Below, one piece after another: positions 1 to 25,325 of a stretch of DNA of 64,000 nt (the first letter of the stretch is position 1; every line of letters begins with the position of its first letter). Source of the DNA: Acidimicrobiia bacterium (lineage in GTDB: Bacteria; Actinomycetota; Acidimicrobiia; Acidimicrobiales; CATQHL01); the NCBI GenBank assembly GCA_009835395.1, contig VXXM01000079.1, positions 1-64,000 of the forward strand. Direction: 5' to 3'. A program made the translations under genes and the position numbers. The notes under the pieces are model-generated. The model was not told the DNA's origin. It was given only the letters and a program-made list of their open reading frames with translations, and ran no database searches.

Positions 1-3000
1 GGGCAGCGGGGTGGCGGGGTCGGCGGTGCGGGCACTGGCCTGGAAGTTCCAGATGGCGCCGGACCCCTCGGCGGGCACCACCTCGGGGAGGGCCTGCGAG
101 AGGGCGCCGAGACAGAGATCGGTCACGAAGTGGCCGATCACGTGGCGCACGGCGATGGGAGCCGGCTCGGTGGCGTTGAGGATGACGCCCGGCGGCGCGC
201 TCACCGTGAACGGGAACAGCGAGGCATGGTTGTTGGGCAGTTCCGGCGCCAGTGCCACCAGCATCCCGTAGGTGAAGTAGGCCTGGGCGTAGGTGATGGG
301 CACGTTGATGCCCATCGGGCTGATGGGCGAGGTGCCGGCGAAGTCGGCGTGCATGCCCTCGGAGTTGACGGTGAGTGTCACGGCGAGATTGACGGGGTCG
401 CCGTAGCCGTCCACCCGCATCTCGTTGCGGTAGGTGCCCGGGGGCACCGCCGCCATTGCTTCCAGGGTGGCCTGGCGCGTGCGGTCGAACACGAAGCCGG
501 CCACCTCGGAGAGATCGGCGATGCCGAACTCCTCGAACATGGCGAGCAGGCGCCGGCGCCCGATCTCGTTGCAGGCGGCAAGGCCGTGGAGGTCGCCGAT
601 CACGTAGTCGGCGGCGCGCACGTTGTGGCGCACGATGTTGACGAGGTCGCGGTTCAGCCGCCCCCGGTCGGCCCATCGCATGATGGGGATCCGCAGCCCC
701 TCCTCGTAGACCTCGCGGGCGTCGGGGCCCCAACCCCTGCCTCCGACATCGACCACGTGGGCGGTGGAGGCGAAGAAGCCGACGAGGTCGTCGCCGACGA
801 AGACGGGCGTCGTGACGGTGAAGTCGTGCAGATGGCCGGTGCCCTTCCAGGGGTCGTTGGTGATGTAGACGTCGCCCGGCGCGATGGTCTCGGAGCCGAT
901 GTCGGCGATGAAGTGCCCGACGGCGGCGGCCATTGTGTTGACGTGGCCGGGTGTCCCGGTGACGGCCTGGGTGATCATGCGGCCCTGGCGGTCGAACACT
1001 CCCGCCGAGAGGTCGCCCGCCTCGCGGACCGACGTGGCGAAGGCGGTTCGCACCAGGGTGCGGGCCTGTTCCTCCACGATCGAGATGAGGCGGTTCCACA
1101 TGACCTGCAACTGCACTTCGCCAGGGTCGGCGCCGCTTCCGGCGGCTGCCGCCTCACCGGCGCCGGTCCGGGCTCCCGACGTCGTCCCCGAGCGGATCAC
1201 GAGCGTGCCGTCGGCGGTCACGGCAGCGCTGTGATGGGGCCCCAGCACGGTGGTGGTCTGCTCCTCCACGATCAAGGCAGGTCCCTGCACCCGCTCGCCC
1301 GCCACGAGCGCGGCCCGTTCCACGATGCCGGCCTCCAGGGATCCGCCGGTGGCCGGATCGTGAACCGCCCGGTGGGCCCCCGCCGTCACGGCGGCGCCCT
1401 CGGTCACGGGAGAGACGAGCCTCCGGGGCGCCTGCTGCGATGACACCCGCACCGACCAGCTCACCGCCTCGATGGTGAGGTCTTCGATGGCGCGCCCGAA
1501 GTGCGCCTCGTAGGCGGCTGTGAAGGCGTTTCCGAGTGCCTGCGCGGTGACGCGGCCCGGCGGCAGTTCCACCGGGATCTCCCAGCCCTGACCCCGGTAG
1601 CGCATCGAGGCCTGGCGTTGGGTGATGAGCGGCGCGTCGGTGCCCCGCCGCACGAACGCCTCCGCCTCGGCGGTGAGCTCGGCGAGTGTGTCGTTGACCC
1701 CCTCGTCGTCGAAGTCCTCGACGGTGGTGTAGAGGCTGCGCGACGCCTCGTAGGAGAACGGCGCCAGCAGGAATCCGATGGCCGAGCCGACACCGGCGCC
1801 GGTGGGCACCAGAACCTCGGTGAGACCGAGCTTGTCCATGAGCCGGGTGGCGTGCACCGGCGCGCCGCCGCCGAAGGCCACCATGGAGAAGCCGCTGAGG
1901 TCCTTGCCGTGCTCGACGGCGTGGACGCGGGCCGCGTTCGCCATGTTCTCGTCCACGACCTCGGTGACACCGACCGCGCCCGTGACGGTGTCCAACCCCA
2001 GGGGCGTTGCGATGGCCTGCATGGCCCCCTCGGCAAGGTCCGGCGACAGCGAGATGTCCTTGGCCCCGAACGTGTCGGGATGCAGGCGGCCCAGGCAGAC
2101 ATCGGCGTCGGTCACGGTGGGGTCGTCCCCGCCGAGGTCGTAGGCCGCGGGTCCGGGTTCCGAGCCGGCGCTGCGGGGCCCCACGCGGATCTGCCCGAGG
2201 GCGTCCACCGAGGCGATGGAGCCACCCCCCGCGCCGATCTCCAGCATCTCGATCACCGGGATCGAGATGGGCATGCCGCTGCCCTTCTTGAATCTGGCCT
2301 CCCGCGCCACCTCGAAGCTGGAGGCGGTGCGCGGCACGTGATCCTCGATGAGGGCGATCTTGGCCGTCGTGCCACCCATGTCGAACGAGCAGATGCGGTC
2401 GCGGCCGTGGCGGGCAGCCAGATCGGCGGCGAACACGGCCCCGCCGGCGGGGCCCGACTCGACCAGGCGCACCGGGAACGCCGCGGCCACCTCCACGCTC
2501 AACAGGCCGCCGCCGGAGTGGATGAGGTGCAGCGGGCAGGTGGCGCCGAGCCGGTGGAGTTCGGCCTCCAGGCGACGCAGGTACGAGGCCATCAGCGGCT
2601 GCACGTAGGCGTTGGCACAGGTGGTGTTGAAGCGCTCGTACTCGCGCATCCGCGGCGAGACCTCGCTGCTGAGTGAGACCGCGACATCGGGCGCGGCCTC
2701 GAGCAGCAGCTCGCGGAAGCGGCGCTCGTGGTCGCCGTTGCGGTAGCTGTGCATGAATCCGACGGCCACGGACTCGTAGCCGGCGTCGGTCAACTCCGCC
2801 ACGACGGCTCGGGCGCCGCTCTCGTCGAACGGCACCAGCACCTCGCCCCGGGCGTTTAGGCGCTCGGCGACGACGTAGCGGTCCTTGCGCTCGATCAGTG
2901 GTGCCGGCAGCACGATGTTGAGGTCGTATTGCTCGAAGCGGCTCTCGGTACGGGTCTCGATCACGTCGCGGAACCCTGCTGTTGTGACGAGCGCGGTGCT

Positions 3001-3234
3001 GGCGCCGGTCCGCTGGATGAGGGCGTTGGTGGCCAGCGTGGTGCCGTGGATGATCTGGGTCACCTCGGCGAGGTCGACGTCGTTGCCGGCTGCCAGTTCG
3101 GTCACTGCTGCCAGCACGCCTTCCTCGGGGCGGCCGGTCGTCAGCACCTTGGTCGAGACGAACCGGCCGTCATCCCGTTCCAGCACCACGTCGGTGAAGG
3201 TGCCTCCCACGTCGGCCCCGATGCGCAGCGGCAC
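1..3234 (-). CDS. Fused hydantoinase/5-oxoprolinase HyuA-HyuB (3' end outside window)
   Basis: The reading frame from a GTG at 3234 to the window edge stays open for 1078 codons. It is missing from the ORF track only because its stop lies outside. The N-terminal half is HyuA: RIGADVGGTFTDVV near residue 3, FDMGGTTAK near 285 (ASKHA nucleotide-binding motifs), and GAGGGSIASVD. The HyuB half starts near residue 700 (VQLQVMWNRLISIVEEQA) and includes GDVYITNDPWKGTGH. I checked the junction codon by codon: one frame, no stop, joined by a short Ala/Gly-rich linker. The family performs ATP-dependent opening of hydantoins, 5-oxoproline or related cyclic amides; the substrate cannot be read. The start has GAGGAGG upstream inside the end of the SDR gene, which stops 2 nt before it, so the two form an operon. 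By family length about 150-200 residues are missing. Confidence 0.9.
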   Translation of the reverse strand, partial: MPLRIGADVGGTFTDVVLERDDGRFVSTKVLTTGRPEEGVLAAVTELAAGNDVDLAEVTQIIHGTTLATNALIQRTGASTALVTTAGFRDVIETRTESRFEQYDLNIVLPAPLIERKDRYVVAERLNARGEVLVPFDESGARAVVAELTDAGYESVAVGFMHSYRNGDHERRFRELLLEAAPDVAVSLSSEVSPRMREYERFNTTCANAYVQPLMASYLRRLEAELHRLGATCPLHLIHSGGGLLSVEVAAAFPVRLVESGPAGGAVFAADLAARHGRDRICSFDMGGTTAKIALIEDHVPRTASSFEVAREARFKKGSGMPISIPVIEMLEIGAGGGSIASVDALGQIRVGPRSAGSEPGPAAYDLGGDDPTVTDADVCLGRLHPDTFGAKDISLSPDLAEGAMQAIATPLGLDTVTGAVGVTEVVDENMANAARVHAVEHGKDLSGFSMVAFGGGAPVHATRLMDKLGLTEVLVPTGAGVGSAIGFLLAPFSYEASRSLYTTVEDFDDEGVNDTLAELTAEAEAFVRRGTDAPLITQRQASMRYRGQGWEIPVELPPGRVTAQALGNAFTAAYEAHFGRAIEDLTIEAVSWSVRVSSQQAPRRLVSPVTEGAAVTAGAHRAVHDPATGGSLEAGIVERAALVAGERVQGPALIVEEQTTTVLGPHHSAAVTADGTLVIRSGTTSGARTGAGEAAAAGSGADPGEVQLQVMWNRLISIVEEQARTLVRTAFATSVREAGDLSAGVFDRQGRMITQAVTGTPGHVNTMAAAVGHFIADIGSETIAPGDVYITNDPWKGTGHLHDFTVTTPVFVGDDLVGFFASTAHVVDVGGRGWGPDAREVYEEGLRIPIMRWADRGRLNRDLVNIVRHNVRAADYVIGDLHGLAACNEIGRRRLLAMFEEFGIADLSEVAGFVFDRTRQATLEAMAAVPPGTYRNEMRVDGYGDPVNLAVTLTVNSEGMHADFAGTSPISPMGINVPITYAQAYFTYGMLVALAPELPNNHASLFPFTVSAPPGVILNATEPAPIAVRHVIGHFVTDLCLGALSQALPEVVPAEGSGAIWNFQASARTADPATPLP

Positions 3235-10170: not shown

Positions 10171-11109
10171 ATGAACGAGTCGACGACTTCTGAAATCGAC
10201 GGTGTGGAGGACGTCGGCGCTGGCACGGCGTCTGGGATCGTGTCCGTGGAGACCCGACCCGCCAAGACCTTGCCGGGGATCCTCGGGGTGCTCTTGGCGC
10301 TAGTGGGGTTGGGGCTGGTCGTCGGCGGCGGATTCGGCGTCACCGAGGTGGGGGGTCTGGCCGCGCTCATTCCGATCGGGGTGCTCCTGTTCATTCTGTC
10401 GTTGCCGGGGCAGTACGTGGTGCAGCCCAACCAGGCGCTGGTGCTCATCATGTTCGGCCGCTACCGGGGGACGGTCACCGAGGCCGGCTGGTACCTGGCG
10501 AACCCGTTCACGCGCGCCGAAACGCGCAAGGTGTCCCTGCGGGTGCACAACTTCACGACCAGCGTGTCGAAGGTGAACGACGCCGAGGGCAACCCCATCG
10601 AGATCTCCGCGGTGGTCGTGTGGCGGGTGGTGGACACGGCCCGGGCCATCTTCGATGTGGATGACTTCGAGGACTTCGTGTACGTGCAGAGCGAGACCGC
10701 CATTCGCCACCTGGGCACGCAGTATCCCTACGACGACTTCGACGGCGACAGGGTGTCCCTGCGCGCCGATCCCGACACCGTCGCCGCGACGCTGCACGAA
10801 GAGGTACAGGCCCGGCTGGACCGCGCCGGTGTGGAGGTCATCGAGACCCGCCTCAATCACCTGGCCTACGCCACCGAGATCGCCGAGGCGATGCTGCGCC
10901 GCCAGCAGGCCGCGGCGGTTGTGGCCGCCCGGCGCACGATTGTCGAGGGCGCCGTGGGGATGGTGGAGGACGCCCTGGAGTTACTGGCGGAGCGTTCGGT
11001 GGTGGAGTTGGATCAGGACGCCAAGGCGTCGCTGGTGGCGAACCTGCTGGTGGTGCTGACCAGCGAGCAGCAGACCACACCGGTTGTGAACACCGGCGTG
11101 ACAGGCTGA
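10171..11109 (+). CDS. SPFH / band 7 domain membrane protein
   Basis: This 312-residue protein has two hydrophobic segments near the N-terminus (about residues 32-55 and 60-75). A stomatin/prohibitin/flotillin domain follows: GQYVVQPNQALVLIMFGRYRGTV, then TRKVSLRVHNFTT, EISAVVVWRVVDTARA and an alpha-helical region with LRRQQAAAVVAARRTIVEGAV. SPFH proteins form oligomeric membrane scaffolds linked to membrane stress and proteolysis. The start is placed at the ATG at 10171 (MNESTTSEID) rather than the track start at 10072, whose first 33 residues look non-coding. It lies 8 nt upstream of the MetY-like gene, so co-transcription is likely. Confidence 0.85.
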   Translation: MNESTTSEIDGVEDVGAGTASGIVSVETRPAKTLPGILGVLLALVGLGLVVGGGFGVTEVGGLAALIPIGVLLFILSLPGQYVVQPNQALVLIMFGRYRGTVTEAGWYLANPFTRAETRKVSLRVHNFTTSVSKVNDAEGNPIEISAVVVWRVVDTARAIFDVDDFEDFVYVQSETAIRHLGTQYPYDDFDGDRVSLRADPDTVAATLHEEVQARLDRAGVEVIETRLNHLAYATEIAEAMLRRQQAAAVVAARRTIVEGAVGMVEDALELLAERSVVELDQDAKASLVANLLVVLTSEQQTTPVVNTGVTG

Positions 11110-13720: not shown

Positions 13721-14137
13721 TCAGAGCGAGCCTCGCGGGGCAACCCACTCACAACGTTGGCCAGTGACTTCGGCGATGCGGTCGTAGTCGGCGTCGTAGT
13801 GGAGGACCGCGAGGCCGTTGAGTTCGGCCGTCGCGGCGATCAGGAGGTCGGGTAGCGGCAGGCGGTGGCGGCCTTCTTGGGCCAGCCGACGCTGGACGTC
13901 CACGGCCCGGTCCGTCACTTCGGGAGTCAGCGGAAACGACGGCAGCGCCCGGCGCTCGGCCAGAACGTCCTCGTAGTCGGCCGGCGAGCGGGCGCTGTAG
14001 AGGACCGCTAGGTCGACGATCGGCGTCGTGGCCACCAGCCCGTCGACGAGCAGCGGCCCCATCCGACGGGCCACGGTCGGGTGATGGAGCCGGGCGAGGG
14101 CGCTCTTGTCGGCCAGGTACAGCGGCGCTACCGCCAT
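13721..14137 (-). CDS. VapC-type PIN-domain toxin ribonuclease
   Basis: This 138-residue PIN domain starts LYLADKSALARL (acidic D10), has a middle block TTPIVDLAVLYSAR, a third acidic site in LPDLLIAATAELNGLAVLHYD, and ends DADYDRIAEVTGQ. The acidic residues expected for Mg-dependent RNase activity are all present. The gene overlaps the antitoxin gene by 10 nt. VapC toxins usually cleave tRNA or rRNA; the target cannot be read from sequence. Confidence in the toxin class is high because of the paired antitoxin. Confidence 0.9.
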   Translation of the reverse strand: MAVAPLYLADKSALARLHHPTVARRMGPLLVDGLVATTPIVDLAVLYSARSPADYEDVLAERRALPSFPLTPEVTDRAVDVQRRLAQEGRHRLPLPDLLIAATAELNGLAVLHYDADYDRIAEVTGQRCEWVAPRGSL

Positions 14138-14334
14138 GCGCTCCGCATGACTTGCTCGTCAGCCAGGTCGGTTCCCTCACCGGCTTCGAGTCGCCGCAGG
14201 TGCCGGCGGCGCAACTCGCCGTCGATCACCTGCTGCAACGCGGCGTTGACGGCCTCCTTCATGGTCGCAGCCCCCGTCAGCACCCGCGCCTCAGCCAGCA
14301 GATCGTCGTCGATGTCGACCAGCCGTTTTGTCAC
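14128..14334 (-). CDS. VapB-type antitoxin
   Basis: This 68-residue protein has a ribbon-helix-helix N-terminus (MTKRLVDIDDDLLAEARVLTGAATMKEAVNAALQQVID), the layout of VapB antitoxins with the DUF2191-type motif. An Arg-rich helix RRRHLRRLEAGEG and a C-terminal tail follow, suited to binding VapC. The stop lies inside the start of the toxin gene, so the two are translationally coupled. An AT-rich inverted repeat directly upstream is a likely autorepression site. Confidence 0.88.
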   Translation of the reverse strand: MTKRLVDIDDDLLAEARVLTGAATMKEAVNAALQQVIDGELRRRHLRRLEAGEGTDLADEQVMRSAWR

Positions 14335-14421: not shown

Positions 14422-15555
14422 CTACGCCCGGCTCACGCGGACGCCGAGGGTCGTGGGCTCGGTGGGCCGGTCGTGCCGCGAGCCGTCCAGGCGCTCGCGC
14501 AGCCTTTCGAGAAGGTCGGCCGGATCGAGGCCGGGCGCCGACCAGTCGACATACGGGATGAGATCCTCGAACCGATCGTTGAATTCCTCCAGCTGATCGT
14601 CGAGGTCCTCGAGCCACTTGTCGAGATACTCGTGCAGATCCTCGATCGAGAGGTCCGGCAGACCCTCGAACGAGAGGTCCGGCAGATCCTCGAACGGATT
14701 CTCGAACGTGAGGCCGGTTGAGGAGGTCCTCTTGGTGATGACGGTCACGAGTTCCTCGCCGGTCCCGGGATGCTCGAAGACGACGGTGACCGAGCCGTCG
14801 TCGTTCTGCGTGAGGTGGACTCCGTCGGGAACGGGACCACCCTCGAACGCCTCAGGCTCTAACTCGTAGACGGGAGCATCGGCGACGAGGTCCCACAGGG
14901 TCATGCCGCCCGGGGGTTCGTCGAATCGGAGTTCGTAGCCGTCCTTGGCGATCCGGCCCTTGAAGAAGTGTTCGAAAGGCGCTTCGGGGCACGGGCACTT
15001 GCACTTGGTGTCCGTGAGAGCGAGCGTCTCGCAGCCGGCTGGCTCCGTCTCCGGATCATGCGCTTGCTCCGCCGGCCCTTCGGTGGTTCTGGAGGCCGGC
15101 TCGGGATCGACGAGCCCGGCATCGGATGCGGCGTCATCGGAGCGCTCCGGCGCGGCGGGCTGTGGATCTGCGGGCGTCGACTCGACGGGCGCTGGGTCTT
15201 CAGGTGGCACCGCGGAGGGTTGCGGATCTGCTGCACGGGAATTGCCGGACTCGGGTGTCGCCGGTGCCGCTGCACTGGTCGCCGGTGCCGTGGCGACGCG
15301 GACGCTTCCTCCGTCGTTGCCGAGCGTGTTCCAGGCCACGAGGCTGCCTGCCAGCAGGGCCGCGGCCGCGGCGACGCCCACCAGCGTGTACCGGAGCCGC
15401 CGGGCGCTCGCCGCCGTGGCGGCCCGCTCGACGACGCCCGCCACCGGGGGAATCCGGTCCAGAGACTCCGACCGCCTGCCGATCGCCGCGCCCAGGTCGG
15501 CGCCGAGGGTCCGGTCGTGCTCGGCCGGTTGGCCAGTGTCGCGGTTCCCGTTCAT
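14422..15555 (-). CDS. Membrane-anchored ECF sigma partner (putative anti-sigma/sensor), short ectodomain form
   Basis: The protein has 377 residues. A 55-residue cytoplasmic part (DLGAAIGRRSESLDRIPPVAGVVERAA) is followed by one membrane helix (56-78), ending in AWNTLG. A Pro/Ala-rich extracellular linker runs to about 170, then a Cys cluster at 175, 185, 187 and 189. Residues 201-275 form a module (IAKDGYELRF to GEELVTVIT) shared with the 706-residue paralogue. An acidic amphipathic tail (284-333) has near-repeats of F-E-x-L-P-D-L-S. There is no HxxxCxxC zinc anti-sigma motif. It overlaps the sigma gene by 4 nt (ATGA). An anti-sigma or co-sensor role is inferred from pairing and topology. 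Confidence 0.65.
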   Translation of the reverse strand: MNGNRDTGQPAEHDRTLGADLGAAIGRRSESLDRIPPVAGVVERAATAASARRLRYTLVGVAAAAALLAGSLVAWNTLGNDGGSVRVATAPATSAAAPATPESGNSRAADPQPSAVPPEDPAPVESTPADPQPAAPERSDDAASDAGLVDPEPASRTTEGPAEQAHDPETEPAGCETLALTDTKCKCPCPEAPFEHFFKGRIAKDGYELRFDEPPGGMTLWDLVADAPVYELEPEAFEGGPVPDGVHLTQNDDGSVTVVFEHPGTGEELVTVITKRTSSTGLTFENPFEDLPDLSFEGLPDLSIEDLHEYLDKWLEDLDDQLEEFNDRFEDLIPYVDWSAPGLDPADLLERLRERLDGSRHDRPTEPTTLGVRVSRA

Positions 15556-16064
15556 CTGTCGATCACCTCCCGCAGTTGCGCGAGCCCTCCGGCGAGAAGG
15601 CTCTTGACGGTGCCGGGGCGGATGCCCATCGTCTCGGCGATCTCCTTCTCGGACAGATCGCCGTAGTAGCGCAGCACCAGGGCCGTCTTTCTCCTGGTGG
15701 GCAACCGCTCGAGGGCATCCAGCAGGTAGTCCTGCTGCGCCGGGGCCTGTTGCGGCTGCCCCGGCAGGATGCGGCGCCGCACTTCCCGCTTGCGCAACTC
15801 GCTGCGGGCGCCGTTCACGACCGCCGTGCGCAGGTAACCGCCGGGATTCCGGAGCCGGCCCCAGCGCTCGAACACCTTGGCGAAGGCGTCCTGGGCGATC
15901 TCCTCAGCCGCCTCGGGGGTGTCCAGGAGCCCGTAGGCGAGCCGCACCATGGCGAGGTACTCGGTCCGGTAGAACTCGTCGAAGGCCTCGGCGATCACGT
16001 GTTTATCCAATACCTCCGCCGGCGCCTCCGGTTCGCTGTACGTGGCGGCGGTGAGCGTTCCCAT
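15552..16064 (-). CDS. ECF RNA polymerase sigma factor (copy 1)
   Basis: This 170-residue sigma-70 family ECF factor has region 2 (FDEFYRTEYLAMVRLAYGLL, then EEIAQDAFAKVFERW) and region 4 (RLPTRRKTALVLRYYGDLSEKEIAETMGIRPGTVKSLL). It is about as long as typical SigE-type ECFs. The track start is a GTG at 16067; I prefer the adjacent ATG at 16064, which matches the paralogue (MGTL versus MGTF). It overlaps the membrane partner gene downstream. A promoter element conserved with copy 2 lies 7 nt upstream, implying autoregulation and a leaderless or nearly leaderless transcript. Confidence 0.92.
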   Translation of the reverse strand: MGTLTAATYSEPEAPAEVLDKHVIAEAFDEFYRTEYLAMVRLAYGLLDTPEAAEEIAQDAFAKVFERWGRLRNPGGYLRTAVVNGARSELRKREVRRRILPGQPQQAPAQQDYLLDALERLPTRRKTALVLRYYGDLSEKEIAETMGIRPGTVKSLLAGGLAQLREVIDR

Positions 16065-16071
16065 CACCCCT

Positions 16072-16099
16072 ACCGACGCACGACCGGAGTGATCGGTTC
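16072..16099 (-). promoter_or_regulatory. Putative autoregulatory ECF promoter, sigma copy 1
   Basis: On the minus strand GAACCGATC, a 12-nt spacer and CGTCGGT precede the sigma gene; the -10-like element ends 7 nt before the ATG. The same nonamer, the same spacer length and the same distance to ATG occur upstream of the paralogous sigma gene at 18848. The GAAC / CGTC pattern is typical for ECF promoters. That TSS position leaves no room for a ribosome-binding site. Confidence 0.65.
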
Positions 16100-16162
16100 A
16101 TCGGGCTCGCAGAAGTTCTGCGTAGTCGTCAGCACGCGGGATGTGCGATGTGCCGGCACGCG

Positions 16163-16192
16163 AGCGGGCCCCGCCGTCCGGCGGGGCCCGCT
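16163..16192 (-). terminator. Strong hairpin between the two sigma/sensor modules
   Basis: AGCGGGCCCCGCC and GGCGGGGCCCGCT form a perfect 13-bp stem around a GTCC loop, 27 nt past the stop of the 706-residue gene and before the promoter of sigma copy 1. There is no U-tract, as is usual in high-GC actinomycetes. It probably insulates the two modules from each other. Confidence 0.7.
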
Positions 16193-16218
16193 GGGGCATG
16201 GGGGAGATGTCTGGTGGC

Positions 16219-18339
16219 CTACGGCACTGGGGCGATAAACCAGCGGGCGGTGGGGCTCCGAGTCCCGGACCGCTGCGAGTCGCTGCCGTCTGTCGAGACC
16301 GACTGTGAGACCGTCTCGCCGTCGGTCGCGAGGAAGACCTGTGCGAGCACAAAATCGTTGCCGACGGCGAGTTCGACCCGGGGGTACGTGCCGCCGACGT
16401 CGATCCCGAAGGCATCGGCGGCGTTCTGCCAACCCCAGGCGGTGCCGCCGGCCGACCAGCCGATCCAGGTCGGAGGCGGCTCGAACGCGCCGAGGCCGTC
16501 GGTGAACTGCGCAGCGTTGCGTTCCAGGTCAGCGGCCGTGAAGGCCACGAGGTCGTCGCCCGTGTCGGGATCCTCGAAGACCAGGGTCTGGGAGCCGTCG
16601 TCCTCGGCGACGATGCGGAGGCCGTCCGGCGCCGCTGCCCTGAACATGATCTCGGGGGCGGCGAACTCGTAGACGGCGACGTCCGCGGCGAGGTCCCAGA
16701 GGGCCAGGTCGCCCCAGGCTTGGTCGAGGCGCAGTTCGTAGCCGTCCTTGACGATGCGGACCTCGAGGCGGGAGCCGGCGCCGGCTATCGGCTCCGCCGT
16801 GGTCACCACGCCGGCCGGGCCCGCGGTGAGGATCGGGCCGGGTCGCAGGCCCTCGAACTCGGCGGCCGTTCCCGGACCGCGGCCGACATCGAGGCGCTCG
16901 ATGCGGTAGGAGTCGTAGCTCCGGGCGCTGCGCCACGCGGCGCCGTCAGGGCCGCGCGTCATGGGGACATAGCCCTGCTCGCTGACGTCGTGCTCGGTCC
17001 ACGCGCGACCGTCCGGTGAGGTGAGCAGCAGGTCGCCCTCGCCGGTGCGCAGCGTGATGAAGAACCCTTCGACGGTGCTGATCGCCGAGGTGTTGGCCCC
17101 GTCGTAGCGACCTACCGGCTCGGTGCCGGCGCCGTCGCTCGTGAAGAGGTGGACGCGTTGGTCGTGCTGGCCCTCGGATCCCGCGCAGGGCGCCGACTGG
17201 CCGGGCGCAAGGCCCAACTCGTCAAAGGGGATCTCGACGCTCTCGGCGTCGGCCTCCTCACCCAGATAGACGACGAGAGCGCTGTCGGTGTAACGCCAGT
17301 GCAGTATCGAGTCCCGGTCCGGGGTGTGGCCGAACGCCACGAGCAACTCCTGGAGGTCGAGGTCGCTGTGGGTCTCGACGACGGCCACCATCCGGTCACC
17401 GGAGGCCAGTGCCGCAGTCACCCTTGCGCGCCTGACGCAGTACGGCGGCAGCGAGCCCGCTCCGGATCCGACGTCGATGCTCAGTTCGGTCCAGGTCGCG
17501 CCCTGGTCGTCGGAGAAGAACACCCGTCCGCGATGCTGCGGATCGGCTGTGTCCGGCCCGCCGACCACCCAGCGGTCGCCGCCGATGGCGGGGAGGTCGG
17601 GATAGATGCCGTCGGGCATGTCGATGGCGGTCCACGTCGTACCGTCGGTCGTGACCACAACCTGGTTGCCGGCATCACCCCAGGCGAGGGCGACGATGCG
17701 GCCGTCGCCGACGGACTCCATGCGGTAGACGTCGATGAGTCCCGTGCTCGTATCGAAGTCCACTTCGATCCACGTCAGGGTGGGTCCGGTGGACAACTCT
17801 TCGGGTGCGAGGAGGCTCGAATCGATCACCGTCGATCCGGGATCGGCTTGCTCCGCTCCGTCGACCGGCTCGGCTGTGGTCGGATCGGCGAGCTGCCGGT
17901 CGGCCGCCGAGGACTCGTCTCCGGCGGGTGCGGCTGCGGAATCGGCGGCCGGCTCGTCGCCGAGGTCGGCCGGGTCGGCTCCAGCGGCGGCCGGACCGGA
18001 TTCGCCCGTCGCGTGCTCGGCTGGTTCGGCCTCCGGCGCGGTCGGATCGGGGACGGCCGGCTGGGTGGCCACCTGGATGTTGCCGTCGCCGGTGTCGCTT
18101 CCCAGCGTGTTCCAGGCCGCCAGGCCGCCGGCGATCAGGGCCGCCGCGGCGGCGATGCTCACCACACCGTGCCGGACCCGCCTGGCCTTCGCCAGTGCGG
18201 CGGCCCGCTCGGCGATGTCGGTGACCGGGGGAGTCACGATCGGCGAATCGGTCTCCCTGCCGACGGCCTCTCCGAGGGCGTCGCCCAGAGCGTCGCCATC
18301 ACCGTCCTCGCGGGGATCGCGCCGCCGGTTCTCGTTCAT
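16219..18339 (-). CDS. Membrane-anchored ECF sigma partner with beta-propeller-like ectodomain
   Basis: The protein has 706 residues and the same start plan as the 377-residue paralogue: short cytoplasmic part (DALGEAVGRETDSPIVTPPVTDIAERAAALAKARR in pieces), membrane helix 57-78 ending AWNTLG, and an acidic Ala/Pro-rich linker to about 180. A region from about 190 to 520 has Asp-box/BNR-like repeats: TTDGTTW (230-236), SDDQGATW (276-283) and SPDGRAW (441-447), pointing to a sialidase- or Ycf48-like beta-propeller. Residues 527-601 repeat the module found in the paralogue (IVKDGYELRL to GDDLVAFT). A further 100 residues close the protein. It overlaps sigma copy 2 by 4 nt. Function as sensor or anti-sigma is inferred. 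Confidence 0.65.
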   Translation of the reverse strand: MNENRRRDPREDGDGDALGDALGEAVGRETDSPIVTPPVTDIAERAAALAKARRVRHGVVSIAAAAALIAGGLAAWNTLGSDTGDGNIQVATQPAVPDPTAPEAEPAEHATGESGPAAAGADPADLGDEPAADSAAAPAGDESSAADRQLADPTTAEPVDGAEQADPGSTVIDSSLLAPEELSTGPTLTWIEVDFDTSTGLIDVYRMESVGDGRIVALAWGDAGNQVVVTTDGTTWTAIDMPDGIYPDLPAIGGDRWVVGGPDTADPQHRGRVFFSDDQGATWTELSIDVGSGAGSLPPYCVRRARVTAALASGDRMVAVVETHSDLDLQELLVAFGHTPDRDSILHWRYTDSALVVYLGEEADAESVEIPFDELGLAPGQSAPCAGSEGQHDQRVHLFTSDGAGTEPVGRYDGANTSAISTVEGFFITLRTGEGDLLLTSPDGRAWTEHDVSEQGYVPMTRGPDGAAWRSARSYDSYRIERLDVGRGPGTAAEFEGLRPGPILTAGPAGVVTTAEPIAGAGSRLEVRIVKDGYELRLDQAWGDLALWDLAADVAVYEFAAPEIMFRAAAPDGLRIVAEDDGSQTLVFEDPDTGDDLVAFTAADLERNAAQFTDGLGAFEPPPTWIGWSAGGTAWGWQNAADAFGIDVGGTYPRVELAVGNDFVLAQVFLATDGETVSQSVSTDGSDSQRSGTRSPTARWFIAPVP

Positions 18340-18848
18340 TTCTCGATCACCTCCCGGAGTTCCGCCAGCCCTCGCGACACCATGCTCTTGACCGTTCCGG
18401 GACGGACGCCCATGGTCTCGGCGATCTCCCGTTCGGACAGGCCGGCGTAGTAGCGGAGCACGAGGGCCGTCTTCCTCTTGGCCGGGAGCCGGTCGAGGGC
18501 GTCGACCAGGTAGTCCCGTTCAGCGGCCGGCTGCGGAGGCCGATCCAGGCCCACCCGCCGCCGCACCTCCCGCTTGCGCAACTCGCTGCGGGCGCCGTTG
18601 ACCACCGCGGTTCGCAGGTAGCCGCCCGGTGAATCCAGCCGATCCCAGCGTTCGAACACTTGGGCGAAGGCGTCCTGGGCGATCTCCTCGGCGCACTCGG
18701 AGGTATCGACCAGCCCGCGGGCCAACCGCACCATGGGTGCATACTCGGCCCGGTAGAACTCGTCGAACTCGGCGGCGATCACGCGACCATCCAACACTCT
18801 CGGCGGGACAATCGTGTGGCTTTCACTGACGGCGAGGAATGTCCCCAT
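18336..18848 (-). CDS. ECF RNA polymerase sigma factor (copy 2)
   Basis: This 170-residue ECF sigma factor is closely similar to copy 1: FDEFYRAEYAPMVRLARGLV, EEIAQDAFAQVFERWDRL, the identical GGYLRTAVVNGARSELRKRE and KRKTALVLRYYAGLSEREIA. The track start at 19013 adds 55 Arg-rich residues that would read through the promoter. The ATG at 18848 aligns with copy 1. Region 4 keeps the helix-turn-helix (EIAETMGVRPGTVKSMVSRG). It is coupled to the 706-residue membrane protein (ATGA). The two region 4 helices are nearly identical, so cross-talk at each other's promoters is possible. Confidence 0.92.
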   Translation of the reverse strand: MGTFLAVSESHTIVPPRVLDGRVIAAEFDEFYRAEYAPMVRLARGLVDTSECAEEIAQDAFAQVFERWDRLDSPGGYLRTAVVNGARSELRKREVRRRVGLDRPPQPAAERDYLVDALDRLPAKRKTALVLRYYAGLSEREIAETMGVRPGTVKSMVSRGLAELREVIEK

Positions 18849-18855
18849 CAACCGC

Positions 18856-18883
18856 AACGACGCCCGAGTCCCCCGATCGGTTC
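18856..18883 (-). promoter_or_regulatory. Putative autoregulatory ECF promoter, sigma copy 2
   Basis: The minus strand carries GGAACCGATC, a 12-nt spacer and CGTCGTT, ending 7 nt before the ATG at 18848. It matches the element before sigma copy 1 in the nonamer GAACCGATC, spacer and ATG distance. An upstream ACTTCTG is also shared at slightly different spacing. Confidence 0.65.
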
Positions 18884-19101
18884 CAGAAGTCTGTGGCGAT
18901 GCCGCGGACCGAGTCCGGCGGCGGCAATGTCGCTCGTCGCCCAGCGACACGTTCTGATCGCCGGGAGCCTCGACTCGCGGCCTGTCGGCGACTGCGCGCA
19001 GCGGCTGCCGCAAGGACTTTGCGCACCACCGGTGCCGACCCCGCGGAAGTGCGCGAATCGGGCAGAATGATGCCGTACCGCACGCTCAACGAGGAGCCGT
19101 G

Positions 19102-21386: not shown

Positions 21387-22379
21387 ATGGCGAGGGCTCA
21401 GGGATACGTGCCGGACGGCATGCCGATGGAGCCGCCAAGGTTCCTGACTAGGCCCTCGGAGTCGCTGGGGAACGTCACCAAGCTCACGAAGCTGATGCTG
21501 TGGCCCTACGGGCTGTTCTACATCGGGCTTTCGGTGGTGATCTGGAACTACTTCACGCCGGCGTTGGCGCGTATGGAACGCTTCGAGATCGGTTGGGTGG
21601 CCGAGATCTACGTGCGCAACCTCGTCATGGTGGCGGTGTGGGTGAGCGCCATCCACTTCTGGCTCTACGTGCGACGGGCGCAGGGGATGCGGTTCAAGTA
21701 CGACGGGCAGTGGCTCAGCACCAGAGCCCGCCGCTTCCTGTGGCGCAACCAGGCGTGGGACAACGCCTTCTGGAGCCTCGCCAGCGCACCCGTCTTCTGG
21801 ACCTTCTGGGAGGCACTTCTCTACTGGTGCTACGCCAACGAGTACATCCCGCACGTCCGCTGGAGCGACGGGGCGGGTTGGGTCGTCTACCTGGTGGTGA
21901 TGACGGTCTTCTCGTTCTGGCTGGTGGCCGGCTACTTCTACGTGACCCACCGGTTCCTGCACACCCGGCCCATGTACCGGTGGGCCCACTACCTCCACCA
22001 CAAGAACGTCAACACCGGGCCGTGGTCGGGCCTGTCGATGCACCCGGTCGAGCACCTGCTCTACTTCTCGACGCCGGTGTTCTTCCTGTTCATCCCCGCC
22101 AACCCGTTCATCATCATCGTCACGCAGATCTTCACCGGTCTGGCCCCGTCGCTGGGCCACTCCAACTTCGACCGGATCGTGGTCGCCGGCGACCGCACCC
22201 TCCCGGCCGGCGACTACTTCCACGACCTGCACCACAAGTACTTCGAGTGCAACTACGGCACCCCGGTCGTCCCCGTCGACGCCTGGGTCGGCACCTGGCA
22301 CGACGGCTCCGCCGAGGCCCACGAACGGATGCGAGCCCGCCGGGAGGCCGCCGGCCACCTCGCCCGCAAAGGCGACTGA
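21387..22379 (+). CDS. Fatty-acid hydroxylase / sterol-desaturase superfamily membrane protein (copy 1)
   Basis: This 330-residue integral membrane diiron enzyme has hydrophobic segments near residues 38-55, 72-92, 125-145 and 165-187, plus another after the second histidine box. The histidine boxes are HRFLH (188-192), HYLHHKN (201-207), HPVEH (about 218-222) and HDLHHKYFECNYG (279 onward), as in the superfamily that hydroxylates or desaturates lipids, sterols and carotenoids. The substrate is unknown. A near-identical paralogue lies at 24348. The two N-termini differ most, while the box regions are almost the same (HKNVNTGPWSGLSMHPVEHLL). Confidence 0.88.
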   Translation: MARAQGYVPDGMPMEPPRFLTRPSESLGNVTKLTKLMLWPYGLFYIGLSVVIWNYFTPALARMERFEIGWVAEIYVRNLVMVAVWVSAIHFWLYVRRAQGMRFKYDGQWLSTRARRFLWRNQAWDNAFWSLASAPVFWTFWEALLYWCYANEYIPHVRWSDGAGWVVYLVVMTVFSFWLVAGYFYVTHRFLHTRPMYRWAHYLHHKNVNTGPWSGLSMHPVEHLLYFSTPVFFLFIPANPFIIIVTQIFTGLAPSLGHSNFDRIVVAGDRTLPAGDYFHDLHHKYFECNYGTPVVPVDAWVGTWHDGSAEAHERMRARREAAGHLARKGD

Positions 22380-23878: not shown

Positions 23879-24226
23879 TCACTCGATGGCGGCCTCCACG
23901 GCGGCATCCGCCAGAGCCCCCAGCAGGTCGATCACTGCGAAGGCCTTGCCTTCGGAGATCGCGTCGAGCGGCCTCATGCCTTCGAGTTCGGGCTGGGGCG
24001 ACCGCAGCCAGCTTCGCGCCTCGCGGTCGGGCATCGCCTTGCGGGCGAGATCCACGACGGCGCGCAACTCGAGGAGCCGCTCTTCCACGTCGCGACGGAC
24101 GGTGGCCCCTCGATAGCGCCAGCGGACGACGTTGCGCTTGCTGGTCCGGGTGACCTGTGCGAGGTCTCCCACGGTCAGCACCCCCCCGGCGCACACGTTG
24201 TCCAGCAGCGATCTGATCGTCGTCAT
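23879..24226 (-). CDS. MbcA/ParS/Xre-type antitoxin (DUF2384), solitary
   Basis: This 115-residue protein has an N-terminal helix-turn-helix-like part (LTVGDLAQVTRTSKRNVVRWRYRG) and a C-terminal DUF2384 block: SWLRSPQPELEGMRPLDAISEG. That is the layout of ParS/MbcA antitoxins that neutralise RES-domain NAD-degrading toxins. No RES-domain gene is adjacent. The start was set to the ATG at 24226, which has AGGA upstream; the track start at 24280 is Arg-rich and unsupported. It is divergent from hydroxylase copy 2, so it may regulate that gene instead of a toxin. Confidence 0.7.
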   Translation of the reverse strand: MTTIRSLLDNVCAGGVLTVGDLAQVTRTSKRNVVRWRYRGATVRRDVEERLLELRAVVDLARKAMPDREARSWLRSPQPELEGMRPLDAISEGKAFAVIDLLGALADAAVEAAIE

Positions 24227-24347
24227 CGTTGCGGTCCTCCTTCTGCGCAGCGGACCCTGGCGGGACACATACGTTGGCACAATTCAGGCGGGCGAGGGGC
24301 GGCTGGTACGATCGGCAAGCCGCGGATCGGCTAGGGGGACGTTGGCC

Positions 24348-25325
24348 ATGGAGCGGATCGCGGGATACGAGCCGGCAGACGCCATCCCGATGCTTCCGCC
24401 CACGCTGCGGGGTGGACCACGGAAGGCGCTGCGCACCGTCTGGGACCTCGTTTGGATGACGATGTGGCCCTACGGGTTCGTCTACGCCGGCCTGGCGGCG
24501 TTGGTGTGGAACGTCTTCACGCCCGCCATGGAGCGCATGGAGCGGTTCGCGGTCGGCTGGATCGCCGAGATCTACCTGCGCAACGTGGTGCTGCTGCTGG
24601 TCTCGGCGGGTGGTCTCCATCTCTGGCTCTACGTGCGCCGGGCGCAGGGCAAGGACTACAAGTACGACTACCGGTGGCCGCGCAAGAGGAGTCGCCGCTT
24701 CCTCTGGCGCAGCCAGACCCGGGACAACATGTTCTGGGCGCTCACCAGCGGTGCCTTCTTCTGGACGGCCTACGAGGCCTTGCTTCTTTGGGCGTACGCC
24801 AACGACCACATCGCGCGGGTGGATTGGGGTGACGGCCCGGGTTGGGTCGTCTACCTGCTTGCGATGACGGTCGTGCCGTTCTTCCTGGTCACGGCGTGGT
24901 TCTATGTGACCCACCGGCTGCTGCACACCCGTCCCCTCTACCGCTGGGCGCACTACCTGCATCACAAGAACGTGAACACCGGACCGTGGTCGGGGCTCTC
25001 GATGCACCCCGTCGAGCACCTGCTCTACTTCTCCACGGTGCTGTTCTTCATGGTCATCCCGGTGAGCCCGTTCGTCGTCATTCTCACGAACCTCTTCACC
25101 GCCATGGATCCGGCTCGAGGTCACTGCGGCTTCGATCGCTTCGAGATCGGCTACGGCCGCACGATGCCCGCGGGCACCTACTACCACGACCTGCACCACA
25201 AGTACTTCGAGTGCAACTACGGCTTGCAAGTGATCCCCATAGACGCCTGGATGGGCACCTGGCACGACGGCTCGCCCGAGGCGCACGAACGCATGCGGGC
25301 CCGCCTGGAGGCCACTCGGCGCTGA
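24348..25325 (+). CDS. Fatty-acid hydroxylase / sterol-desaturase superfamily membrane protein (copy 2)
   Basis: This 325-residue paralogue of the 21387 gene has the same membrane-segment layout and histidine boxes: HRLLH (189-193), HYLHHKN (about 202), HPVEH and HDLHHKYFECNYG. The start at the ATG at 24348 has GGGGGA upstream and matches the length of copy 1; the track ORF begins about 216 nt too early, inside the divergent promoter region. As in copy 1, the segment HKNVNTGPWSGLSMHPVEHLLYFS is conserved. Two such similar copies 2 kb apart suggest duplication followed by substrate divergence or a heteromer. Confidence 0.88.
   Translation: MERIAGYEPADAIPMLPPTLRGGPRKALRTVWDLVWMTMWPYGFVYAGLAALVWNVFTPAMERMERFAVGWIAEIYLRNVVLLLVSAGGLHLWLYVRRAQGKDYKYDYRWPRKRSRRFLWRSQTRDNMFWALTSGAFFWTAYEALLLWAYANDHIARVDWGDGPGWVVYLLAMTVVPFFLVTAWFYVTHRLLHTRPLYRWAHYLHHKNVNTGPWSGLSMHPVEHLLYFSTVLFFMVIPVSPFVVILTNLFTAMDPARGHCGFDRFEIGYGRTMPAGTYYHDLHHKYFECNYGLQVIPIDAWMGTWHDGSPEAHERMRARLEATRR

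Follow-up and report, generated by a model that had tools for sequence, protein, structure and literature searches.

The closest demonstrated case for the mechanism that we propose here, by analogy, is the Tt-RpoE1/Tt-TolB pair of Thermoanaerobacter tengcongensis, in which residues 1-39 of the downstream membrane protein Tt-TolB bind the ECF sigma factor Tt-RpoE1 and the protein inhibits transcription (PMC3397946). The sigma/partner module described below can be likened to it by layout, with an ECF sigma gene followed by a gene for a single-pass protein that has a short N-terminus and a large outer part, which in Tt-TolB is of the TolB (propeller) type. The Tt-RpoE1 promoter is autoregulated, has N16 spacing and carries a CGTC -10 element, as the module promoters do or are predicted to do (PMC3397946). 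The two differ in that the genes of the T. tengcongensis pair are separated by a 2-base gap rather than joined by a 4-base overlap, its -35 element is tGTTAC, its host is a Firmicute and it is, as reported, present in single copy (PMC3397946).

The closest evolutionary pattern is that of SigI/RsgI in Clostridium thermocellum, where several paralogous overlapping pairs share the inside part and the helix, the outer domains vary (CBM3, PA14, GH10), and the self-activated promoters are slightly different (PMC4711584), a pattern that the module shares or is predicted to share. In contrast to the module, SigI is not an ECF sigma factor, the cytoplasmic part of RsgI is ~165 aa and its ligands are known polysaccharides, whereas the outer domains of the module are likely of propeller types (PMC4711584). 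In class II anti-sigma factors such as CnrY and NepR, a short zinc-free segment of two helices stands ahead of a membrane helix or occurs without one (PMC7406223, PMC8103513); the predicted helices of the module segment would resemble it, but there is no detectable sequence similarity. The pairs of the SigE family (TIGR02983) in Actinobacteria resemble the module in sigma family, ATGA overlap, short N-terminus, single helix and variable outer part; however, the N-termini of their partners gave no significant hhalign profile alignment with those of the module, and the window sigmas fall just below the TIGR02983 cut-off. We conclude that the module is real and conserved, and that sensor multiplication of this sort is clear but not categorically new. 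The main interest of the locus lies in the exchange of sensors together with a matched change in sigma factor and promoter, which allows a concrete test.

Two adjacent sigma/partner pairs in an Acidimicrobiia genome

The window, which is the whole 64,000-nucleotide stretch of DNA that was analysed, belongs to contig C80 of a metagenome-assembled genome (G000) that spans 3.16 Mb and is 94% complete. Its close relatives by name are bacterial metagenome-assembled genomes including 'Acidimicrobiia bacterium SB0661_bin_55', IRC4_bin_37 and APA_bin_18, and the bin names of such relatives suggest that the genus is probably sponge-associated. A sequence-only reading of the window had described two adjacent, same-strand pairs, each with an ECF sigma factor overlapping a single-pass membrane protein by ATGA. 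Open reading frames and coordinates bore this out: both pairs lie on the minus strand, and the ATGA overlap is seen in each. Their features are as follows.

18858..18884, minus strand: predicted pair 1 promoter, GGAACC-N16-CGTCG, with the sigma ATG 9 bases downstream and a probably leaderless transcript; the element recurs in place at 30 of 32 module sigmas
18336..18848, minus strand: sig1, ECF sigma factor, 170 aa, SigE/TIGR02983-like, R159 kept
16219..18339, minus strand: par1, single-pass membrane partner, 706 aa, ATGA overlap with sig1
18166..18339, minus strand: par1 cytoplasmic segment, residues 1-58, helices 16-31 and 39-52 predicted (low-confidence model), putative anti-sigma segment
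18100..18165, minus strand: par1 membrane helix, residues 59-80
16222..17784, minus strand: par1 ectodomain, beta-propeller-like with Asp-box motifs (SxDxGxxW), holding the shared blade pair as an insertion
16522..16764, minus strand: par1 shared KDGYELR stretch, residues 526-606, a pair of beta-meanders resembling blades
16074..16100, minus strand: predicted pair 2 promoter, TGAACC-N16-CGTCG, with the sigma ATG 9 bases downstream
15552..16064, minus strand: sig2, ECF sigma factor, 170 aa, G159 replacing the conserved Arg
14422..15555, minus strand: par2, single-pass membrane partner, 377 aa, ATGA overlap with sig2
15385..15555, minus strand: par2 cytoplasmic segment, residues 1-57, putative anti-sigma segment
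15319..15384, minus strand: par2 membrane helix, residues 58-79
14731..14961, minus strand: par2 shared KDGYELR stretch, residues 199-275, apparently the sole remnant of the ancestral ectodomain

A third copy of the module is present in the same genome on contig C7.

The module was duplicated within the genus

Both window sigmas carry sigma2 (PF04542) and sigma4 (PF08281) domains above the Pfam cut-offs and, at 170 aa, fit the pattern of ECF (sigma70 group IV) factors (no sigma3, ~170-190 aa). They had been called very alike, and are 70% identical over 170 aa. In a family profile search the best family for each was the SigE family TIGR02983, with scores of 138.5 and 141.0 bits against a curated cut-off of 141.55, which places both as related to the family but just outside it.

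A survey of related genomes for the same pair, one of the checks proposed in the sequence-only reading, returned 32 sigma/partner pairs in 30 genomes. All 32 come from four families of one order (Acidimicrobiales) and all have the 4-base overlap of sigma and partner, and a 58%-identical sigma from another order is paired with a different partner. No copy of the module was found on a plasmid. The flanking genes are syntenic and conserved only within the genus, and the gene neighbourhood beyond it gave no hint of function. Pair 1 of the window is the usual form of the family, with an Asp-box propeller-like ectodomain that contains the shared stretch.

The tandem recurs in two further genomes of the genus, G004 and G007, and is therefore not a product of chance. 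In the sigma tree, one clade inside the genus (support 100/99) unites sig2, the third copy on C7, the sigma of G005 and the second-copy sigmas from G004 and G007, and sig1 clusters with the first copies. The partners belonging to this duplicate clade have three makes of ectodomain, namely the shared stretch without a propeller (window, G004), a propeller without the stretch (G007) and RCC1 repeats (C7, G005), while their cytoplasmic segment and helix are 71-96% identical in the pairs measured. The clade, the kept inside part and the three unrelated ectodomains lend good support to the earlier proposal that duplication was followed by sensor diversification. One genus member, G002, has the same flanks and no second pair; because the tree places the divergence of sig2 ahead of the species split, loss from G002 is likelier than late gain.

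The duplicate clade carries a matched change in sigma factor and promoter

The element [G/T]GAACC-N16-CGTC was found upstream of 30 of the 32 module sigmas, across the four families, nearly always 9-10 bases before an in-frame sigma ATG that is usually written as GTGATG. With an ECF promoter at that spacing, transcription would begin on the start codon or right beside it, and the module mRNA is thus predicted to be leaderless. Self-activated ECF operons are marked by conservation of an ECF-type promoter ahead of the sigma gene, and we predict self-activation for the module operons on this ground. Genome searches with the promoter pattern, in which the control patterns were imperfect owing to base composition, recovered only the modules' own promoters as recurrent matches to the full element; other matches were near chance level or inconsistent between genomes. 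Self-activation is therefore the sole regulation that we predict.

Two further observations concern these elements. A conserved intergenic near-match, TCAACCGAAC-N12-CGTC, lies between rnhA-like and AMP-ligase-like genes at loci L161-L165 (G007:C23, G004:C267, G002:C128, G006:C75, G000:C33) and is possibly the promoter of another ECF sigma factor. The sig1 promoter region is present in tandem two or three times in G007 and G003 (L038 near 10385-10500; L042 near 2924-3135).

In E. coli sigma-E, the -35 element GGAACTT is read by R176 at its first G, by S172 at its second and by R171 at the C (PMC3397946, PMC6713349). Alignment to this sigma factor, whose reference sequence was confirmed against PDB 1or7, identified R159, S155 and K154 of sig1 as the equivalent residues. 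Every module sigma retains S155 and K154. Position 159 is Gly in the five sigmas of the duplicate clade and Arg in each of the 27 others, and the first base of the -35 element differs in the same way, with GGAACC in 26/26 promoters found outside the clade and TGAACC in 4/4 inside. This co-change arose once, in a single ancestor, and therefore gives no statistical proof. The lost base is the one read by the lost residue, a match that speaks for the promoter assignment and also for a shift in specificity, and we suggest that the duplicate copies were probably rewired to a changed promoter signal.

A competing explanation, to which we give a lesser but substantial weight, is that the copies are redundant, with every sigma reading the same promoters, three sensors feeding one response and the -35 change neutral. 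The -10 element and most of the -35 element are indeed identical between the two promoter types, and cross-talk has been reported among the SigI paralogues of C. thermocellum (PMC4711584). A neutral change, however, sits poorly with the finding that the altered base is that read by the altered residue in each of the four duplicate-clade promoters.

The cytoplasmic segment of the partner follows the sigma factor

The common cytoplasmic start and helix noted earlier were readily recovered, with the N-terminal ~95 residues of par1 and par2 alike (51% identity over 97 aa; 44% in the cytoplasmic segment and 73% in the helix). The reported absence of a zinc anti-sigma motif (HxxxCxxC) also held, as there is no Cys within the first 58 residues in any of the 32 partners, which rules out a zinc-binding class I anti-sigma factor (ZAS). 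A class I anti-sigma domain without zinc (four-helix, ~100 aa) was rejected as well, with no family match at a cut-off and only ~58 residues preceding the helix. Two of 18 partners gave a weak match to the NCBIfam family 'antisigma' NF052375, with 16.9 bits where the cut-off is 100, and this was not counted as evidence.

Comparison of the N-terminal segment with anti-sigma families, likewise among the proposed checks, gave no Pfam or NCBIfam match at the curated cut-off. The partner proteins as a whole had no Pfam family match and no NCBIfam match at the family cut-off, and a PDB profile search with the partner N-terminus returned nothing. Because there is no curated anti-sigma match, the cytoplasmic segment constitutes an undescribed family by sequence. 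Class II anti-sigma factors are recognised by two helices that wrap sigma4 and sigma2, and the two helices of the par1 segment (16-31 and 39-52) are predicted at low confidence. The sequence-only reading had suggested a possibly new class of ECF partner; the undescribed family speaks for this, but the layout has a precedent in Tt-TolB and resembles CnrY, and the suggestion survives weakly. Among the other actinobacterial SigE-family sigmas compared, many likewise overlap a partner that crosses the membrane once and has a short N-terminus and a variable ectodomain, so the general arrangement is common.

Within the module, the cytoplasmic segment tracks the sigma clade and not the ectodomain. 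The second copies of the window genome and of G007, which have different ectodomains, share 78% identity in the sigma factor and 96% in the cytoplasmic segment, and duplicates within one genome share 69-70% and 44-49%, respectively. The identity matrices of sigma factors and N-termini correlate at r = 0.90, much of which is explained by shared ancestry alone. The swap of ectodomains over a constant inside is the stronger argument, and it suggests that the inside is the part that works with the sigma factor.

The partner could instead be an output or co-factor controlled by the sigma factor, such as a surface protein or a membrane tether for its activity, rather than an inhibitor, with the sigma under transcriptional control only. 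Predicted autoregulation with no other target found would leave the partner as the only known product of the circuit, and large, fast-evolving ectodomains would suit a surface protein. We consider this unlikely, however, since the retention of the inside and helix under ectodomain exchange and the fit of the segment to the sigma clade argue for a functional link inside the cell, and since Tt-TolB, alike in layout, inhibits its own sigma factor.

Ectodomains are exchanged over a constant inside

The par1 ectodomain is likely a beta-propeller. It contains repeated Asp-box-like motifs (SDDxGxxW, SPDGRxW, SADGxxW), and most of the 32 partners have this form, with or without the KDGYELR stretch. 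Profile matches of the par1-type ectodomain to sortilin and sialidase were weak (E 0.006-0.02). Foldseek searches with the par1 model (pLDDT 51) gave local matches mainly to propellers (E to 1e-8), their low global TM being due to the poor model. Ectodomains change fast across the module family.

The outside parts of the two window partners had been described as very different, at 377 versus 706 residues. Both figures are in fact whole-protein lengths. The two outside parts also have a region in common: residues 201-270 of par2 match 528-598 of par1 at 54% identity (E 1e-18), so the description holds only in part. This common outer stretch is 71 residues long and has two propeller-blade-like units. 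Its model (pLDDT 81) folds as two antiparallel beta-meanders, one after the other. Almost all of the best Foldseek neighbours of the stretch are beta-propellers, each individually insignificant, and its profile matches WD-repeat proteins weakly. Because the stretch is retained, par2 resembles a par1 that has lost its propeller but kept the inserted blade pair. The par2 C-terminus beyond the shared stretch (window 14422-14730, minus strand) is acidic and helix-like, and the motif EDLPDLSFEGLPDLS is repeated in it; a cluster of four Cys lies ahead of the stretch.

The ectodomain of the third-copy partner on C7 is made of RCC1 repeats with certainty (PF13540, E 2.8e-88). In their assemblies, the RCC1 partners on C7 and in G005 are interrupted within the repeat region, and C7 has masked bases. 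Although these breaks, and the fact that all genus members are metagenome-assembled, would favour it, the idea that errors of assembly or binning produced the ectodomain differences is very improbable and already largely refuted, as par2 recurs in the independent genome G004 (70% identity over 356 aa), RCC1 partners occur in two genomes and the flanking genes are syntenic.

RCC1_2 repeats have undergone a large expansion in G000, with 101 matches in the 3.2-Mb genome (contigs C3, C7, C9, C14, C17, C37, C46, C54 and C64) and 0 in 14 control genomes. The genome's own repeats are a possible source of the third-copy ectodomain.

Proposed mechanism

We think it probable that the module is a self-activating ECF sigma factor checked by a zinc-free membrane anti-sigma factor, and that the duplicate exchanged its ectodomain and became partly insulated. 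The ~58-residue, zinc-free, two-helix N-terminus of the partner would bind and inhibit the sigma factor, while the outer beta-propeller-type domain would sense a ligand or the state of the envelope. The signal may release the sigma factor by conformational change or regulated proteolysis, and the released sigma would transcribe its own operon from GAACC-N16-CGTC, plus any further targets. After duplication in the genus, the copy kept the sigma, cytoplasmic segment and helix while its ectodomain was lost or exchanged in at least three ways, and with the loss of the -35-reading Arg along with the matching promoter G it is probably partly insulated from the original. An M50 (site-2-type) protease is present in the genome and fits proteolytic release, but such proteases are universal and it carries no weight.

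We favour the anti-sigma reading because of the overlap in 32/32 pairs, the promoter at fixed spacing, the well-supported duplicate clade, an inside that follows the sigma clade, the fast change of ectodomains with RCC1 repeats on the third copy, the Arg/G co-change and the Tt-TolB precedent. Counted against it are the lack of a curated anti-sigma match and of an N-terminal profile match, the single co-change event, the promoter searches that found no wider regulon and the propeller pLDDT of 51.

More tentatively, the genus may multiply its sensors by copying one sigma/anti-sigma chassis and plugging in propeller-type ectodomains, including some from its own RCC1 pool, with a matched residue/base change; the products would be natural orthogonal circuits of an undescribed anti-sigma family. 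The locus offers a natural experiment in which sigma factor, putative anti-sigma segment and promoter can be traced through duplication while the sensor swaps. The Arg-to-Gly change with its matching -35 base offers a direct and inexpensive way to test how the circuits of ECF paralogues come apart. The cytoplasmic segments, in turn, are a candidate anti-sigma family, compact and so far undescribed, that could be combined with exchangeable sensors.

Neighbouring genes

A PIN-domain toxin-like gene (window 13721-14137, minus strand) and a small VapB-like gene (14128-14334, minus strand) adjoin par2, and this stretch is missing at the equivalent place in G002 and G007. On the other side of the tandem, two fatty-acid-hydroxylase paralogues (window 21387-22379 and 24132-25325, both plus strand) have a lyase gene between them.
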